Positions 37,022 through 61,066 of a DNA stretch of 64,000 bases are shown here, one piece after another (the first letter of the stretch is position 1; every line of letters begins with the position of its first letter). Source of the DNA: Verrucomicrobiia bacterium (GTDB lineage Bacteria > Verrucomicrobiota > Verrucomicrobiia > Opitutales > Cerasicoccaceae); NCBI GenBank assembly GCA_030425485.1, contig JAUIAM010000002.1, positions 186,001-250,000 on the forward strand, written 5' to 3'. Made by a program: the position numbers and the translations under genes. Below the pieces are notes generated by a model. The model saw only the letters and a list, made by a program, of their open reading frames with translations, was not told where the DNA came from and did no database searches.

Positions 37022-37522
37022 TGCGTGTCTTCAAACTATCTCATCTTTTTAAGCCGCAGAGACGCAGAGCGCAACGGGTCTCCGTAAGCTCAATGTTTTT
37101 GCGACAGCAAAAGGTGCTCTTCAATGATTTCAAAGTAAAATCGGACTTAGCGTTTCAAAGGCTGTGTGCTTTGATTTGAAATGTGGTTTTTCTCTCACGC
37201 AAAGACCGCAAAGCAGTTGAAGAAGGCAGCATCTGGTTTAGGGCAGTTTAAATAAAACCGTAGCCGGAGATACCTATATATTTATAACCACAGATTACGC
37301 CGATAAACACAGATAGACTCGGAATAATCTGTGTGCATCTCTGTAACCTGAGGACACAATATTTCTTTAAATGCTCTAGTCGAAAGGAAACGCTGCTCGT
37401 TTGATAGAAATCGACACGTTGCGCTCTGCGTCTCTGCGGTTAAAGCCTCAGCTTAGTGCGTGAGCGCACCAGACGATGAGAGCCTACGCCCCCGCGGGTC
37501 CGCTTACATTTATCCTGAACGC
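37022..37522. repeat. repeat-filled intergenic region with nested elements
   Basis: No gene here. A roughly 400-base block is bounded by near-perfect inverted arms: TTTTTAAGCCGCAGAGACGCAGAGCGCAACG at 37046-37076 and CGTTGCGCTCTGCGTCTCTGCGGTTAAA at 37417-37444. Inside is a separate 139-base unit (37241-37379) that recurs in opposite orientation at 55835-55972, and a CACGCAAAGACCGCAAAGC motif. The ORF-track entry over this area is a shadow. Confidence 0.85.
37241..37379 (+). repeat. dispersed repeat, copy 1
   Basis: Starts GGGCAGTTTAAATAAAA, then GTAGCCGGAGAT, ATAACCACAGATTAC, GGAATAATCTGTGTG, and ends GACACAATATTTCTTTAAATGCTCTAG. The same order of segments appears in reverse complement at 55835-55972. 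Confidence 0.88.
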
Positions 37523-48266: not shown

Positions 48267-48629
48267 AGTGGATCTGCAACGTTTCAATACGCCTAGGCTG
48301 TGTCTTCAAATTAAGAAACGAGGGAAAAAGAGGTAATTTTGAGGATTTTTTCGGCTTTCGAAGTGGTGTGAATCCAGATTCATGAACTGAGAAAACGGAA
48401 AAAGACGCGAAAAGACCCTTTTCTACCGACCTTGATGAATTTGAAGACACGGCCTAGCATTAATATTTAAGCGATACTTCATTAACTCTCGCAGAGCGCG
48501 CAAAGCGTTTAAGGCAGAGCATATCGGCCTGCGGGATTAACTTTGCGCTCTTTGCGCTCTTTGTGTGCTTTGCGTGAAATAATTTACACAGGAACTAAGC
48601 GAACACAACACTAGCCTGAGGCTTCAAAG
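48267..48629. repeat. repeat-rich intergenic region after sodB
   Basis: No gene. It contains a 167-base element with inverted ends, CCTAGGCTGTGTCTTCAAATTAAG (48292) and AATTTGAAGACACGGCCTAGC (48438-48458), and a second block with GCAGAGCGCGCAAAGCG (48491) and CTTTGCGCTCTTTGCGCTCTTTGTG (48541), followed by GCTTTGCGTGAAATAATTTACAC. Confidence 0.82.
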
Positions 48630-55757: not shown

Positions 55758-55834
55758 TGTGCGGCATTTCCGCAGATTTCACAGATTACTCCAAGCCGAT
55801 CTGCCCGCACCAGCCTAATCCGAGGAGTAATAAC

Positions 55835-55972
55835 CTAGAGCATTTTAAGAAATATTGTGTCCGCAGATTTCGCAGATTCACACAGATGATTCCGGGGTTA
55901 TCCGTGAACATCTGTGTGATCCGTGGTTAAAATATAGAGACATCTCCGGCTACATTTTTATTTAAACTGCCC
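55835..55972 (-). repeat. dispersed repeat, copy 2
   Basis: In reverse complement it reads GGGCAGTTTAAATAAAAATGTAGCCGGAGAT...ACCACGGATCACACAGATG...GGAATCATCTGTGTG...GACACAATATTTCTTAAAATGCTCTAG, the same order as 37241-37379. The centre holds the widespread accessory motif of the CACAGAT type. Confidence 0.88.
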
Positions 55973-57810: not shown

Positions 57811-57856
57811 CCCTAAGGCTGTGCTTGAAAAAAACGGAACGAGCTAGCCTAAGACC
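57811..57856. repeat. short hairpin related to the CTAGGCTGTGT element
   Basis: CCCTAAGGCTGTGCTTGAAAAAAACGGAACGAGCTAGCCTAAG has inverted ends (CTAAGGCT and AGCCTAAG) and the GGCTGTGCTTxAAA...CGGxACGAG phrase found at 51451. It overlaps the nadB stop. Confidence 0.55.
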
Positions 57857-59441
57857 CGCGAGGGCGCTTCATGATCGAGTCGCGGGCCTCGGAGAGCTTG
57901 TCCGGAAAGTCGAGCGTCGTGTGCAGGCCGCGGCTCTCTTTGCGCTGGAGCGCGCACTCGATCACCAACTCGGAGACCTGTATCAAGTTACGCAGTTCGA
58001 GCAAGTGAGGCTCGACCTTAAAGTTCCAGTAGTACTCGTCAATCTCGCGCTGGAGATTCTGGATGCGGGTGCGGGCGCGCTGCAGGCGTTTGCTCGTGCG
58101 CACGATGGCCACGTAGTCCCACATGGTGCGCTTGAGCTCGTCCCAGTTGTGGTAGAGCACCACGCGCTCGTCCGGGTCGCGCACATCGCCGTCGCGCCAG
58201 GGCGGCAGCGTCGTGCTGTCGGGCACGGTATTATCCAGATAAGTCACGGCAGAGTCGGCCCCGTTGTGGGCCAGCACGCAGGCTTCGAGGAGGGAGTTGC
58301 TGGCCAGACGGTTGGCTCCGTGCAGGCCCGTGCAGGCTACTTCACCGCAGGCCAGCAGACCGTCGAGGCTGGTCTTGGCCGAGAGGGAAGTCGTCACCCC
58401 ACCGCAAAGGTAATGACAAGCGGGCACGACCGGAATCCACTCCGTAGCCATGTCGATGCCCTGCTTCTTGCACCCCTCATAGATGTGTGGAAAACGCGCG
58501 CGGATGTGGTCGGCGTCCTGGTGGGTGATGTCGAGCCAGAGGTGTTCCGCGCCGGAAGCCTTCATCTCCGAGTCAATCGCGCGGGCGACGACATCGCGCG
58601 GGGCCAGATCGGCCCGCTCGTCGTAACGCGGCATAAAAGCCTCGCCTGCGGTGTTGCGGAGAATGGCCCCCTCGCCCCGCACGGCCTCGGAAATGAGGAA
58701 TCGCTCCTTGGACTTCGTGTAGAGCGCGGTCGGGTGAAACTGGATGAACTCCATGTTGCGCACCTCAACGCCTGCTCGGTAGGCGATGGCAATACCATCG
58801 CCGGTGGCGATGTCCGGGTTGGTCGAAAACTGATAAATCTGCCCTGCCCCACCCGTGCCGAGCAGGATGACCGGCGCGCGAAAGGTCTTCACCTCGCCGG
58901 AGTGGACGTCGAGCACGTAGAGCCCGAGCACGGCATTGCGCCCGCTCAGGCGGAGCTTGCGCCGGGTGATGAGGTCGATGGCAAAGTGGTGCTCGAAAAC
59001 ATCGATCAACTTGCTCTCGGCCACCGCGTGGAGCAAGGCCGCCTCGATGGCCGCCCCGGTCAGATCCTTGACGTGGAGAATGCGCCGCTTGGAGTGGCCG
59101 CCCTCGCGGTGCAGGGAGATGCGCCCGTCCTCAAGCTGGGTAAAGTCCACCCCCATCTGCTTAAGCTCGGCGATGCGCTCCGGAGCTGTGCTGACGATCT
59201 CGCGCACCACGTCCTCCCGGCAGAGCCCGTCGCCCGCAGTCAAGGTGTCGGCCACGTGCAGTTCGAAGTCGTCCGTCTGCGAGGTGACCGCCGCGATCCC
59301 GCCCTGAGCGTAATTGGTGTTACTCTCGGCCCGGTCCTTCTTGGTGATGATGGCCACACGCTTGCCGCGCGCCGCCACTTTCAGGGCGAAACTCAAACCG
59401 GCAATCCCGCTGCCGACCACTATGACGTCGTAGGTTTTCAA
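57849..59441 (-). CDS. nadB: L-aspartate oxidase
   Basis: 530 aa. Flavoenzyme converting aspartate to iminoaspartate, the first step of de novo NAD synthesis. FAD motif DVIVVGSGIAGLSFALKVAARGKRVAIITK; family patterns NTNYAQGGIAAVTSQTDDFELHVADTLTAGDGLC, VILLGTGGAGQIYQFSTNPDIATGDGIAIAYRAGVEVRNMEFIQFHPTAL, PRDVVARAIDSEMKASG and HYLCGGVTTSLSAKTSLDGLLACGEVACTGLHGANRLASNSLLEACVLAHNGA. The C-terminal helical domain is complete. nadA and nadC are not in the window. Confidence 0.96.
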   Translation of the reverse strand: MKTYDVIVVGSGIAGLSFALKVAARGKRVAIITKKDRAESNTNYAQGGIAAVTSQTDDFELHVADTLTAGDGLCREDVVREIVSTAPERIAELKQMGVDFTQLEDGRISLHREGGHSKRRILHVKDLTGAAIEAALLHAVAESKLIDVFEHHFAIDLITRRKLRLSGRNAVLGLYVLDVHSGEVKTFRAPVILLGTGGAGQIYQFSTNPDIATGDGIAIAYRAGVEVRNMEFIQFHPTALYTKSKERFLISEAVRGEGAILRNTAGEAFMPRYDERADLAPRDVVARAIDSEMKASGAEHLWLDITHQDADHIRARFPHIYEGCKKQGIDMATEWIPVVPACHYLCGGVTTSLSAKTSLDGLLACGEVACTGLHGANRLASNSLLEACVLAHNGADSAVTYLDNTVPDSTTLPPWRDGDVRDPDERVVLYHNWDELKRTMWDYVAIVRTSKRLQRARTRIQNLQREIDEYYWNFKVEPHLLELRNLIQVSELVIECALQRKESRGLHTTLDFPDKLSEARDSIMKRPRGS

Positions 59442-59455
59442 GGAGTTGGATAATT

Positions 59456-59487
59456 ATTTAACCACAGAGTACACAGAGAGAACAGAG
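59456..59487. repeat. left inverted arm of an AT-rich gene cassette
   Basis: ATTTAACCACAGAGTACACAGAGAGAACAGAG. It is the inverse complement of the arm at 59815-59846 except for two or three positions and abuts the stop codon of the enclosed gene. Confidence 0.9.
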
Positions 59488-59793
59488 CTAAGCTTCCTCT
59501 ACCTTCTTCAGCTTTTCGTACCGCTCTTGTAGATTGTAGTAAATATGACCATGCGCATCAAAGTCTGCATCTGTTGCAATTTTATGGTACTCGGCATCCA
59601 ACTCACCTTTTACTTGCGTAAACTTTCCGTTTACATTGCCGGGTTTTATTGCCCATAGCGCTTGGATTACCCTGCTCGACTTACCAAAATGCTTTTGGCA
59701 TACTTCAAAAGCTTTATCAATATGATATGCCGCAATAGCGATATCATTAGCAACAGCTAAGTGTGTTTCTAAATCCATAGGTGGCTTCTTCAT
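59488..59793 (-). CDS. hypothetical alpha-helical protein in repeat-bounded cassette
   Basis: 101 aa. Sequence DLETHLAVANDIAIAAYHIDKAFEVCQKHFGKSSRVIQALWAIKPGNVNGKFTQVKGELDAEYHKIATDADFDAHGHIYYNLQERYEKLKKVEEA is predicted helical and soluble; no family recognised. The gene is much AT-richer than the neighbours and has a clear ribosome-binding site (AGGATTTACTATG). It sits between nadB and panC and is enclosed by inverted CACAGAG repeats, the left one touching its stop codon. This looks like a transferred module. Function unknown. Confidence 0.8.
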   Translation of the reverse strand: MKKPPMDLETHLAVANDIAIAAYHIDKAFEVCQKHFGKSSRVIQALWAIKPGNVNGKFTQVKGELDAEYHKIATDADFDAHGHIYYNLQERYEKLKKVEEA

Positions 59794-59814
59794 AGTAAAT
59801 CCTATCTATTAAAA

Positions 59815-59846
59815 CTCTGTGCTCTCTGTGTCCTCTGTGGTTAAAA
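59815..59846. repeat. right inverted arm of an AT-rich gene cassette
   Basis: CTCTGTGCTCTCTGTGTCCTCTGTGGTTAAAAT. Matches the left arm in inverted orientation; it lies upstream of the enclosed gene and downstream of the panC stop. Confidence 0.9.
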
Positions 59847-59862
59847 TCAAAATCTAAATTCC

Positions 59863-60705
59863 CTACAGCTGTACATTGTCAATGAGGCGGGTTTCTTCCA
59901 TCCAGATGGCGGCGGCGAGGGTGGATTTGCCGGGGCGGACTTCGCGCTCGGGCTGCATGGTTTCGCTGTTCACGATCTCGATGTAGATGAGGCGGATCAT
60001 GCGGCTGCCGGTCAGCATGTGTGAGACCTCGGCCTTGATGCGGTCCACGCTGGTCGTGCCGCGCTCGACCAGTTCCTTGCCCTTGCGCAGGGCCTGCTGG
60101 AGCTTGGCTGCCTCGGCCAAACGGGAGGGCTCCAGGTAGCGGTTGCGCGAGCTCATGGCCAGGCCGCTTTCCTCGCGCACGGTCGGCCCGGTGATGATCT
60201 CGATCGGCATGTGCAGGTCTTTGACCATTTTTTTGATGATGGCGGTCTGCTGGGCGTCCTTTCCGCCAAAGACGGCCACGTCAGGGCGACAGACGTTGAA
60301 GAGGATCGTCACTACGGTGGTGACCCCGCGAAAGTGCCCCGGGCGGGTATGCCCGCAGAGGTGCTTGCTGACGTGTTCCTCGTTGACGTAGGTCGAGTAG
60401 TCCGGCGGGTAAATGACGTCCTTGGTCGGAGCAAAGACCACGTCCGCGCCGCGGGCTTCGCAAGCCTTGAGGTCGTCCTCAAAGGTGCGCGGGTATTTAG
60501 AAAAATCCTCGCTGGGCCCGAACTGCGTGGGATTGACGAAAAGCGAGACCACGGTGAGGTCGGCCCGCTGCCGCGCGATGTCGATCAGCGAGAGGTGCCC
60601 CTCGTGGAGCGCGCCCATGGTCGGCACCAGCGCGAGGAGCTTACCCTTGCCGCGCATGCGGATGGCCCACGACTGCATTTCCTCCGGAGACTCAATGACC
60701 TGCAT
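59863..60705 (-). CDS. panC: pantothenate synthetase
   Basis: 280 aa. ATP-dependent ligation of pantoate and beta-alanine. The nucleotidyl-transferase motif is LVPTMGALHEGHLSLIDIARQ (His34 and His37); other patterns are VSLFVNPTQFGPSEDFSKYPRTFEDDLKACE, HLCGHTRPGHFRGVTTVVTILFNVCRPDVAVFGGKDAQQTAIIKKMVKDL and TVREESGLAMSSRNRYL. Together with PanE it gives two of the steps to pantothenate. panB and panD are not seen. Confidence 0.96.
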   Translation of the reverse strand: MQVIESPEEMQSWAIRMRGKGKLLALVPTMGALHEGHLSLIDIARQRADLTVVSLFVNPTQFGPSEDFSKYPRTFEDDLKACEARGADVVFAPTKDVIYPPDYSTYVNEEHVSKHLCGHTRPGHFRGVTTVVTILFNVCRPDVAVFGGKDAQQTAIIKKMVKDLHMPIEIITGPTVREESGLAMSSRNRYLEPSRLAEAAKLQQALRKGKELVERGTTSVDRIKAEVSHMLTGSRMIRLIYIEIVNSETMQPEREVRPGKSTLAAAIWMEETRLIDNVQL

Positions 60706-61066
60706 GGGAATGGTTTAAACAGGTGAAGGCGCAGAGAACAGAGAAAAGTGGTGTAGAGTTGGAAGATGAAAATGGGAACATGAATGCCGAAGTGAGCGTG
60801 CACCACGGTTCATTGTACATACGGTTGTCATCCTGAGTAAGCGCAGCGCGTCGAAGGATCTCCTCACACGAACGCCGAAGCCACTTTCAGCAGCATTGCA
60901 ACAATCCAGCGCGGAGATCCTTCGACGCGTCCGCAAGACGGACTTGCTCAGGATGACAACGGGAATAAAGCTAAACAAAACGGGCATGAGGTGGACGAGC
61001 CCTAACTTCACCCCCACTCCATCATTGACCCGCCCGCCGACTTGGCTTTCATATCTGCCTTTTCCC
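60706..61066. other. intergenic region with a large palindromic repeat
   Basis: No gene is supported between panC and dapL. The region is occupied mainly by the 137-base palindrome described at 60824. A minus-strand ORF over this stretch (60715-61068) is a translation of the repeat and was not called. Confidence 0.7.
60824..60960. repeat. palindromic GTCATCCTGAG...GGATCTCC repeat
   Basis: Left arm GTTGTCATCCTGAGTAAGCGCAGCGCGTCGAAGGATCTCC (60824-60863); right arm GGAGATCCTTCGACGCGTCCGCAAGACGGACTTGCTCAGGATGACAAC (60913-60960). Each arm also holds a local GCGCAGCGCG or GTCCGCAAGACGGAC hairpin. Similar elements (CATCCTGAGxxxGCGxAGGATCT) occur between genes in many bacterial genomes. Confidence 0.92.

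Follow-up and report, generated by a model that had tools for sequence, protein, structure and literature searches.

What kind of unit is a small, AT-rich gene that stands between two host genes and is closed on both sides by inverted arms, and what could have placed it there? The question is raised by a locus between nadB and panC in the window, i.e., the whole 64,000-nucleotide stretch of a Verrucomicrobiota genome analyzed in this study. A sequence-only reading had described at this locus a 101-codon gene within arms of about 30 bases. Our analysis confirmed the arms, which are 31 nt long, and the AT-richness of the gene, with the arms lying one base inside the limits of 59456-59846 that had been given. 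The features of the locus are as follows.

57849..59441, minus strand: nadB, flanking host gene
59457..59487, plus strand: left inverted arm, TTTAAC followed by CACAGAG/CACAGAG/AACAGAG units spaced 9 nt; abuts the stop codon of the open reading frame (ORF)
59488..59793, minus strand: 101-aa orphan ORF with ATG start, stop TAG at 59488-59490, coding part 59491-59793, and GC 0.41
59800..59803, minus strand: possible ribosome-binding site AGGA, 6 nt ahead of the ATG of the ORF, by sequence inspection
59815..59845, minus strand: right inverted arm, identical to the consensus of the family, TTTAACCACAGAGGACACAGAGAGCACAGAG (minus-strand reading)
59863..60705, minus strand: panC, flanking host gene

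The two arms of the window element, 31 nt each, are 94% complementary and leave 327 nt between them. The left arm ends at 59487 and directly abuts the stop codon at 59488-59490, as had been noticed before. A 19-nt core of the arm, searched with up to three mismatches, matched three times in the window, compared with 0.01 matches expected. The GC content of the ORF was 0.408, compared with 0.60 for the window and approximately 0.63 for nadB and panC, and only 0.35% of 306-bp segments equaled the ORF in AT-richness. The ORF runs in the same direction as panC and nadB. No transposase was found between the arms in Pfam and NCBIfam searches. The element is short and bounded by terminal inverted repeats, and its arm type is present in multiple copies in the same genome.

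The 101-aa protein, which the sequence-only reading could not assign to a family, had no match above the cut-off in Pfam, NCBIfam, PHROGs, or PADLOC and no sequence match in the PDB. No relative was found by tblastn in a further 387 genomes of the phylum, two of them congeners, or by a pattern scan of genome contigs and a phage search, and the sole match in a plasmid search covered 38 residues with E=1. Assignment to the GldD lipoproteins was rejected (16.9 bits against a cut-off of 120, and 15.9 against 27). An AlphaFold single-sequence model was mostly helical at low confidence (pLDDT 53), and structure comparison of the model gave no significant fold match; therefore, no fold is claimed. 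The ORF is likely a real coding gene, albeit unproven, because 102 codons in a row without a stop occur in 2% of random interiors with the composition of the ORF; the possible AGGA site was also noted.

Arms of this family were identified repeatedly in the genome that holds the window (3.81 Mb). The arm pattern, with up to two mismatches, gave 14 matches, compared with 0 for a reversed-pattern control, and a sequence-profile search recovered 14 arms at E<1e-5, in addition to weaker sister types. The arms form inverted pairs located at intergenic junctions, and each arm consists of three CACAGAG-like units set 9 nt apart, with CGCAAAG and CACGGAT units in the sister types. Arm types vary among the elements within one genome. 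The contents also differ (flanking genes named by inspection): at gatA-gatB, CACAGAG arms of the same type as those of the window element enclose a gene of the GxxExxY family, at nadE-hemL the arms enclose a gene for a 77-aa membrane protein, and at gyrB-gyrA a 93-aa ORF lies between them. A 123-aa ORF was found inside nested arms, and two elements, of 84 and 104 bp, are hairpins without a gene. The contents of arm elements other than GxxExxY had no family above the cut-off in Pfam or NCBIfam and are AT-rich, except for one gene of the congener G388 (see below). Thus, the arms are repeated around unrelated contents and around nothing, and the idea of an isolated module did not hold: the observation itself was confirmed, but the element belongs to an extensive arm family linked to GxxExxY.

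The two arms of an element resemble each other beyond the family pattern. Among 17 CACAGAG-type pairs from three species, the spacer dinucleotides agreed in 23 of 34 comparisons, compared with 9.5 expected (0 of 100000 permutations), and all variable columns agreed in 244 of 272, compared with 221.8 expected. This match within elements shows that the two arms are moved or corrected together; it does not indicate the mechanism, and shared subfamily descent of whole elements could contribute.

Additional repeats were observed within the window. A gene-less nested element at 37051-37443 has the outer arms AAGCCGCAGAGACGCAGAGCGCAAC / GTTGCGCTCTGCGTCTCTGCGGTT and contains remnants of CGCAAAG- and CACAGAT-type arms, and a short bare element at 48490-48580 has CGCAGAG/CGCAAAG-type arms and no ORF. 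Closely spaced arms of the CGCAGATTTCACAGAT / CACGGATCACACAGAT type at 55771-55928 are probably a third degenerate element. A separate inverted repeat upstream of panC at 60829-60960, consisting of CATCCTGAGTAAGCGCAGCGCGTCGAAGGATCTCC and its near complement, is unlike the CACAGAG arms.

We compared orthologous junctions between this genome and three other members of the genus (G128, G226, and G388). The order panC-element-nadB is retained in all three congeners, with different contents. At this junction, G388 carries an unrelated 243-aa gene in CACAGAG arms, G226 has both arms with no gene in 181 bp, and G128 has only the right arm, together with a gene for a 133-aa lipoprotein. At leuB-alaS, bare hairpins occur in our genome and G226, and G128 has a 132-aa gene within arms that are almost identical to the G226 arms. 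At murC-purD, our genome and G388 have GxxExxY in CACGGAT arms, and G226 and G128 have bare hairpins of another arm type. The arms around the gyrB-gyrA ORF of our genome are CACAGAG-like, and the three congeners have bare hairpins of other arm types at this junction. The nadE-hemL junction, which holds an element in our genome, is clean in all three congeners. At gatA-gatB, GxxExxY with the same arms is shared by our genome and G388, a different hairpin is found in G226, and an AT-rich 176-aa orphan gene without arms is found in G128, so the arrival of a gene may not need arms.

These site comparisons indicate that both arm type and content turn over at fixed junctions, and such junctions are best read as slots, marked by the arms, in which one content takes the place of another. 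Outside this genus, no unrelated orphan cargo was seen in a small sample of other genera. No target-site duplication or excision product was observed; duplications were sought at the orthologous sites, where the intergenic flanks are too diverged among congeners to resolve them. Since none of the tested relatives carries the 101-aa gene, even without arms, and since the arms are repeated and the sites are polymorphic, the earlier proposal of a small mobile or captured module that lacks a transposase of its own is supported.

The recurrent gene between arms is GxxExxY (TIGR04256; PF13366 PDDEXK_3), a single-domain homologue of PD-(D/E)XK nucleases. In an alignment of the family, D62, E72, and K74 (alignment numbering) are conserved. 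Seven GxxExxY genes were identified in our genome (G000), one in the arm type of the window element and the others in sister types. Nearly all of 23 GxxExxY matches from five genomes were closely flanked by two inverted arms that match each other. The arm-pair score was at least 16 in 20 of the 23, compared with a median of approximately 9 for mispaired arms and a maximum of 11 for shuffled ones, and 8 of the 20 well-matched pairs in this genus and family set had no CRCNRAG unit. The association extends to many phyla: among 80 GxxExxY loci, 43 had an arm pair scoring at least 16, compared with 6 of 320 mispaired and 0 of 63 far-flank controls, and 33 of 37 scored pairs had at least two CRCNRAG units. 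The units of GxxExxY arms are CRCNRAG-like and mostly of period 8 or 9. At two loci (L160 and L325), remnants of GxxExxY still lie between the arms, as expected of derivatives formed by internal deletion.

The number of arms was related to GxxExxY in a census of 195 genomes of the phylum, using a three-unit arm pattern whose controls were near zero. At least one three-unit arm was found in 75 genomes and GxxExxY in 103. GxxExxY was present in 71 of the 75 arm-positive genomes, compared with 32 of the 120 arm-negative genomes (p=9e-23), and in all 46 genomes with at least four arms; only 4 of the 92 genomes without GxxExxY had arms. When GxxExxY presence was shuffled within taxonomic families, the observed count was reached in 0 of 20000 trials. 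As arms flank GxxExxY itself, we also counted the arms beyond two per GxxExxY gene, which corrects for such flanking, and all 26 genomes with at least four of these additional arms have GxxExxY. This link at the genome level is a correlation. Some of the GxxExxY genomes without detected arms may have arm types outside the search pattern. An extreme expansion was observed in one genome (G004), with 260 matches to the three-unit arm pattern in 5 Mb and five GxxExxY genes.

A parallel layout was found for TIGR02436, a family of four-helix bundles, which we take to include the S23p proteins of 23S rRNA intervening sequences. Across the phylum, TIGR02436 genes had arm pairs scoring at least 16 in 14 of 30 cases, compared with 7 of 180 mispaired. 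These arms have period 7 (26 of 28; e.g., TCAGCGGTCAGCGATCAG), and CRCNRAG units were found in none of the 14 pairs. The differing period and unit indicate that arm type follows protein family. TIGR02436 is more widespread than GxxExxY and less associated with the three-unit arms of the census, which occur in only 4 of the 50 genomes that have TIGR02436 and no GxxExxY; G128 has 25 arm matches and no TIGR02436. The 101-aa ORF of the window element had no TIGR02436 match in NCBIfam.

The window element does not encode GxxExxY, according to the Pfam and NCBIfam searches, and can therefore be at most a non-autonomous, cargo-bearing form of the inverted-arm family of GxxExxY. In our judgment, the element probably carries cargo as a non-autonomous member of a mobile-element family dependent on GxxExxY. 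The main rival is that GxxExxY is itself a passenger, merely the commonest gene between arms, and that the mover is another enzyme or a host process. The small size of the GxxExxY protein and its lack of a recognizable transposase domain fit this idea, as does the occurrence of the unrelated TIGR02436 between multi-unit inverted arms, which indicates that a layout of arms and one small gene is not specific to nucleases. However, the motif and period of the arms vary with the protein family (CRCNRAG at period 8-9 versus period 7 with CRCNRAG in 0/14). Arms are also scarce in genomes without GxxExxY (4/92), even in those with TIGR02436 (4/50). We consider a passenger role for GxxExxY unlikely. 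It is rather improbable that the arms serve as mere homology for ordinary recombination, with the interval swapped by no dedicated enzyme. In its favor, arm type is kept at the same sites while contents differ, and chimeric left and right arms were seen, e.g., at E10 of G226 and G388. Nevertheless, imperfect arms of 31 nt offer little length for RecA-type exchange, and both the spread to new sites, such as nadE-hemL, and the dependence on GxxExxY are left unexplained.

Two further explanations start from the hairpins themselves. The arms could be host regulatory hairpins for transcript processing or termination in operon junctions, with genes caught between them by chance. The arms of the window element base-pair in its predicted RNA fold, and by inspection 9 of 9 content genes at the operon junctions examined are co-directional with the operon. 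This explanation seems very unlikely, because positions and arm types vary among congeners, some sites are clean, the link to GxxExxY across genomes would have no cause, and the element matched no Rfam family. REP/REPIN-type elements moved by RAYT, a Y1 transposase, would likewise be intergenic, palindromic, and multi-copy, and REPs have been reported from O. terrae of the same phylum (PMC3733652). This identity was rejected and is almost certainly wrong, as no RAYT (Y1_Tnp, PF01797) was found in our genome, G128, or G226 and inspection of the arms revealed no GTAG/CGTC tags.

Taking the window element as a cargo form dependent on GxxExxY, we propose the following course. The complete form would comprise two arms, each of three CRCNRAG-like units with a period of 8 or 9, around one GxxExxY gene. 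The host GxxExxY protein, supplied by other copies in the genome, would most likely recognize or cut the arms as a duplex or as a hairpin or cruciform, and a PD-(D/E)XK fold would most simply serve to cut the duplex or the extruded hairpin directly. Such enzymatic action on the arms, which we infer from the associations described above, would allow elements, and copies of them, to enter intergenic junctions. After loss of the GxxExxY gene, a copy would persist as a short hairpin, and such bare hairpins and the cargo forms would be moved in trans. Cargo would presumably come in when other DNA replaces the stretch enclosed by the arms, an event that here may have brought an AT-rich orphan gene into line with the panC-nadB operon.

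The family appears to be undescribed. In the open-licence literature, with many subscription journals outside the scope of the search, no description of GxxExxY-arm elements or of the arm sequences was found, and the GxxExxY family was named in passing only, with no assigned role. In kind, the elements resemble miniature inverted-repeat elements (MITEs) and 23S rRNA intervening sequences; the linked protein, the arm architecture, and the swap of orphan contents are new. Like MITEs, they are short and multi-copy, with terminal inverted repeats, and include gene-less hairpins with related gene-bearing copies in the same genome. Unlike MITEs, the window element carries a 101-aa ORF that fills the interval, and no DDE or HUH parent was found here; the GxxExxY element shares the arms of the window element as a parent would, but GxxExxY is not a demonstrated transposase. 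A PD-(D/E)XK parent has been proposed for one MITE of Thiomargarita (PMC4853749), from a nuclease family other than GxxExxY. The copies of the GxxExxY family in our genome have the same CACAGAG arms or sister arms, and the window element differs from them in lacking the GxxExxY gene. The intervening sequences of Coxiella and Leptospira, of approximately 0.4 kb with terminal inverted repeats of approximately 28 bp and one small ORF, are similarly built, and their mobility was proposed long ago and not shown (PMC4990558). They differ in lying inside 23S rRNA helices, from which RNase III excises them, and in encoding S23p, whereas the window element lies between the protein genes panC and nadB and has other arms and another protein.

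More broadly, we tentatively suggest, with somewhat more doubt than confidence, that GxxExxY proteins are the mobilizing enzymes of undescribed, bacteria-wide minimal elements that consist of a small PD-(D/E)XK protein and three-unit arms, are mainly intrachromosomal, and leave behind hairpins and slots for unrelated orphan genes. The S23p/IVP family would then form a parallel class with period-7 arms, which would explain the 23S rRNA intervening sequences. More than half of the 195 genomes in the census encode GxxExxY, as do genomes from many other phyla, and the tie of this family to arms and hairpins provides it with a testable function. The link may also offer an origin for many intergenic repeats and some lineage-specific orphan genes, and the parallel layout of the four-helix bundle proteins provides a way to approach the old question of the movement of 23S rRNA intervening sequences.

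GxxExxY was not found in a pattern scan of IMG/VR contigs or in phages, and only eight plasmid records contained it, all typed as non-mobilizable. A nucleotide search of plasmid records with the window element matched, in Bacteroides finegoldii, an arm a few nucleotides from an annotated GxxExxY gene, as well as a separate bare hairpin. Additionally, tandem hairpins of CACAGAG-type arms were observed upstream of an EAL-domain gene on megaplasmids of two strains of Pseudoalteromonas shioyasakiensis, and their arrangement differs between the strains.
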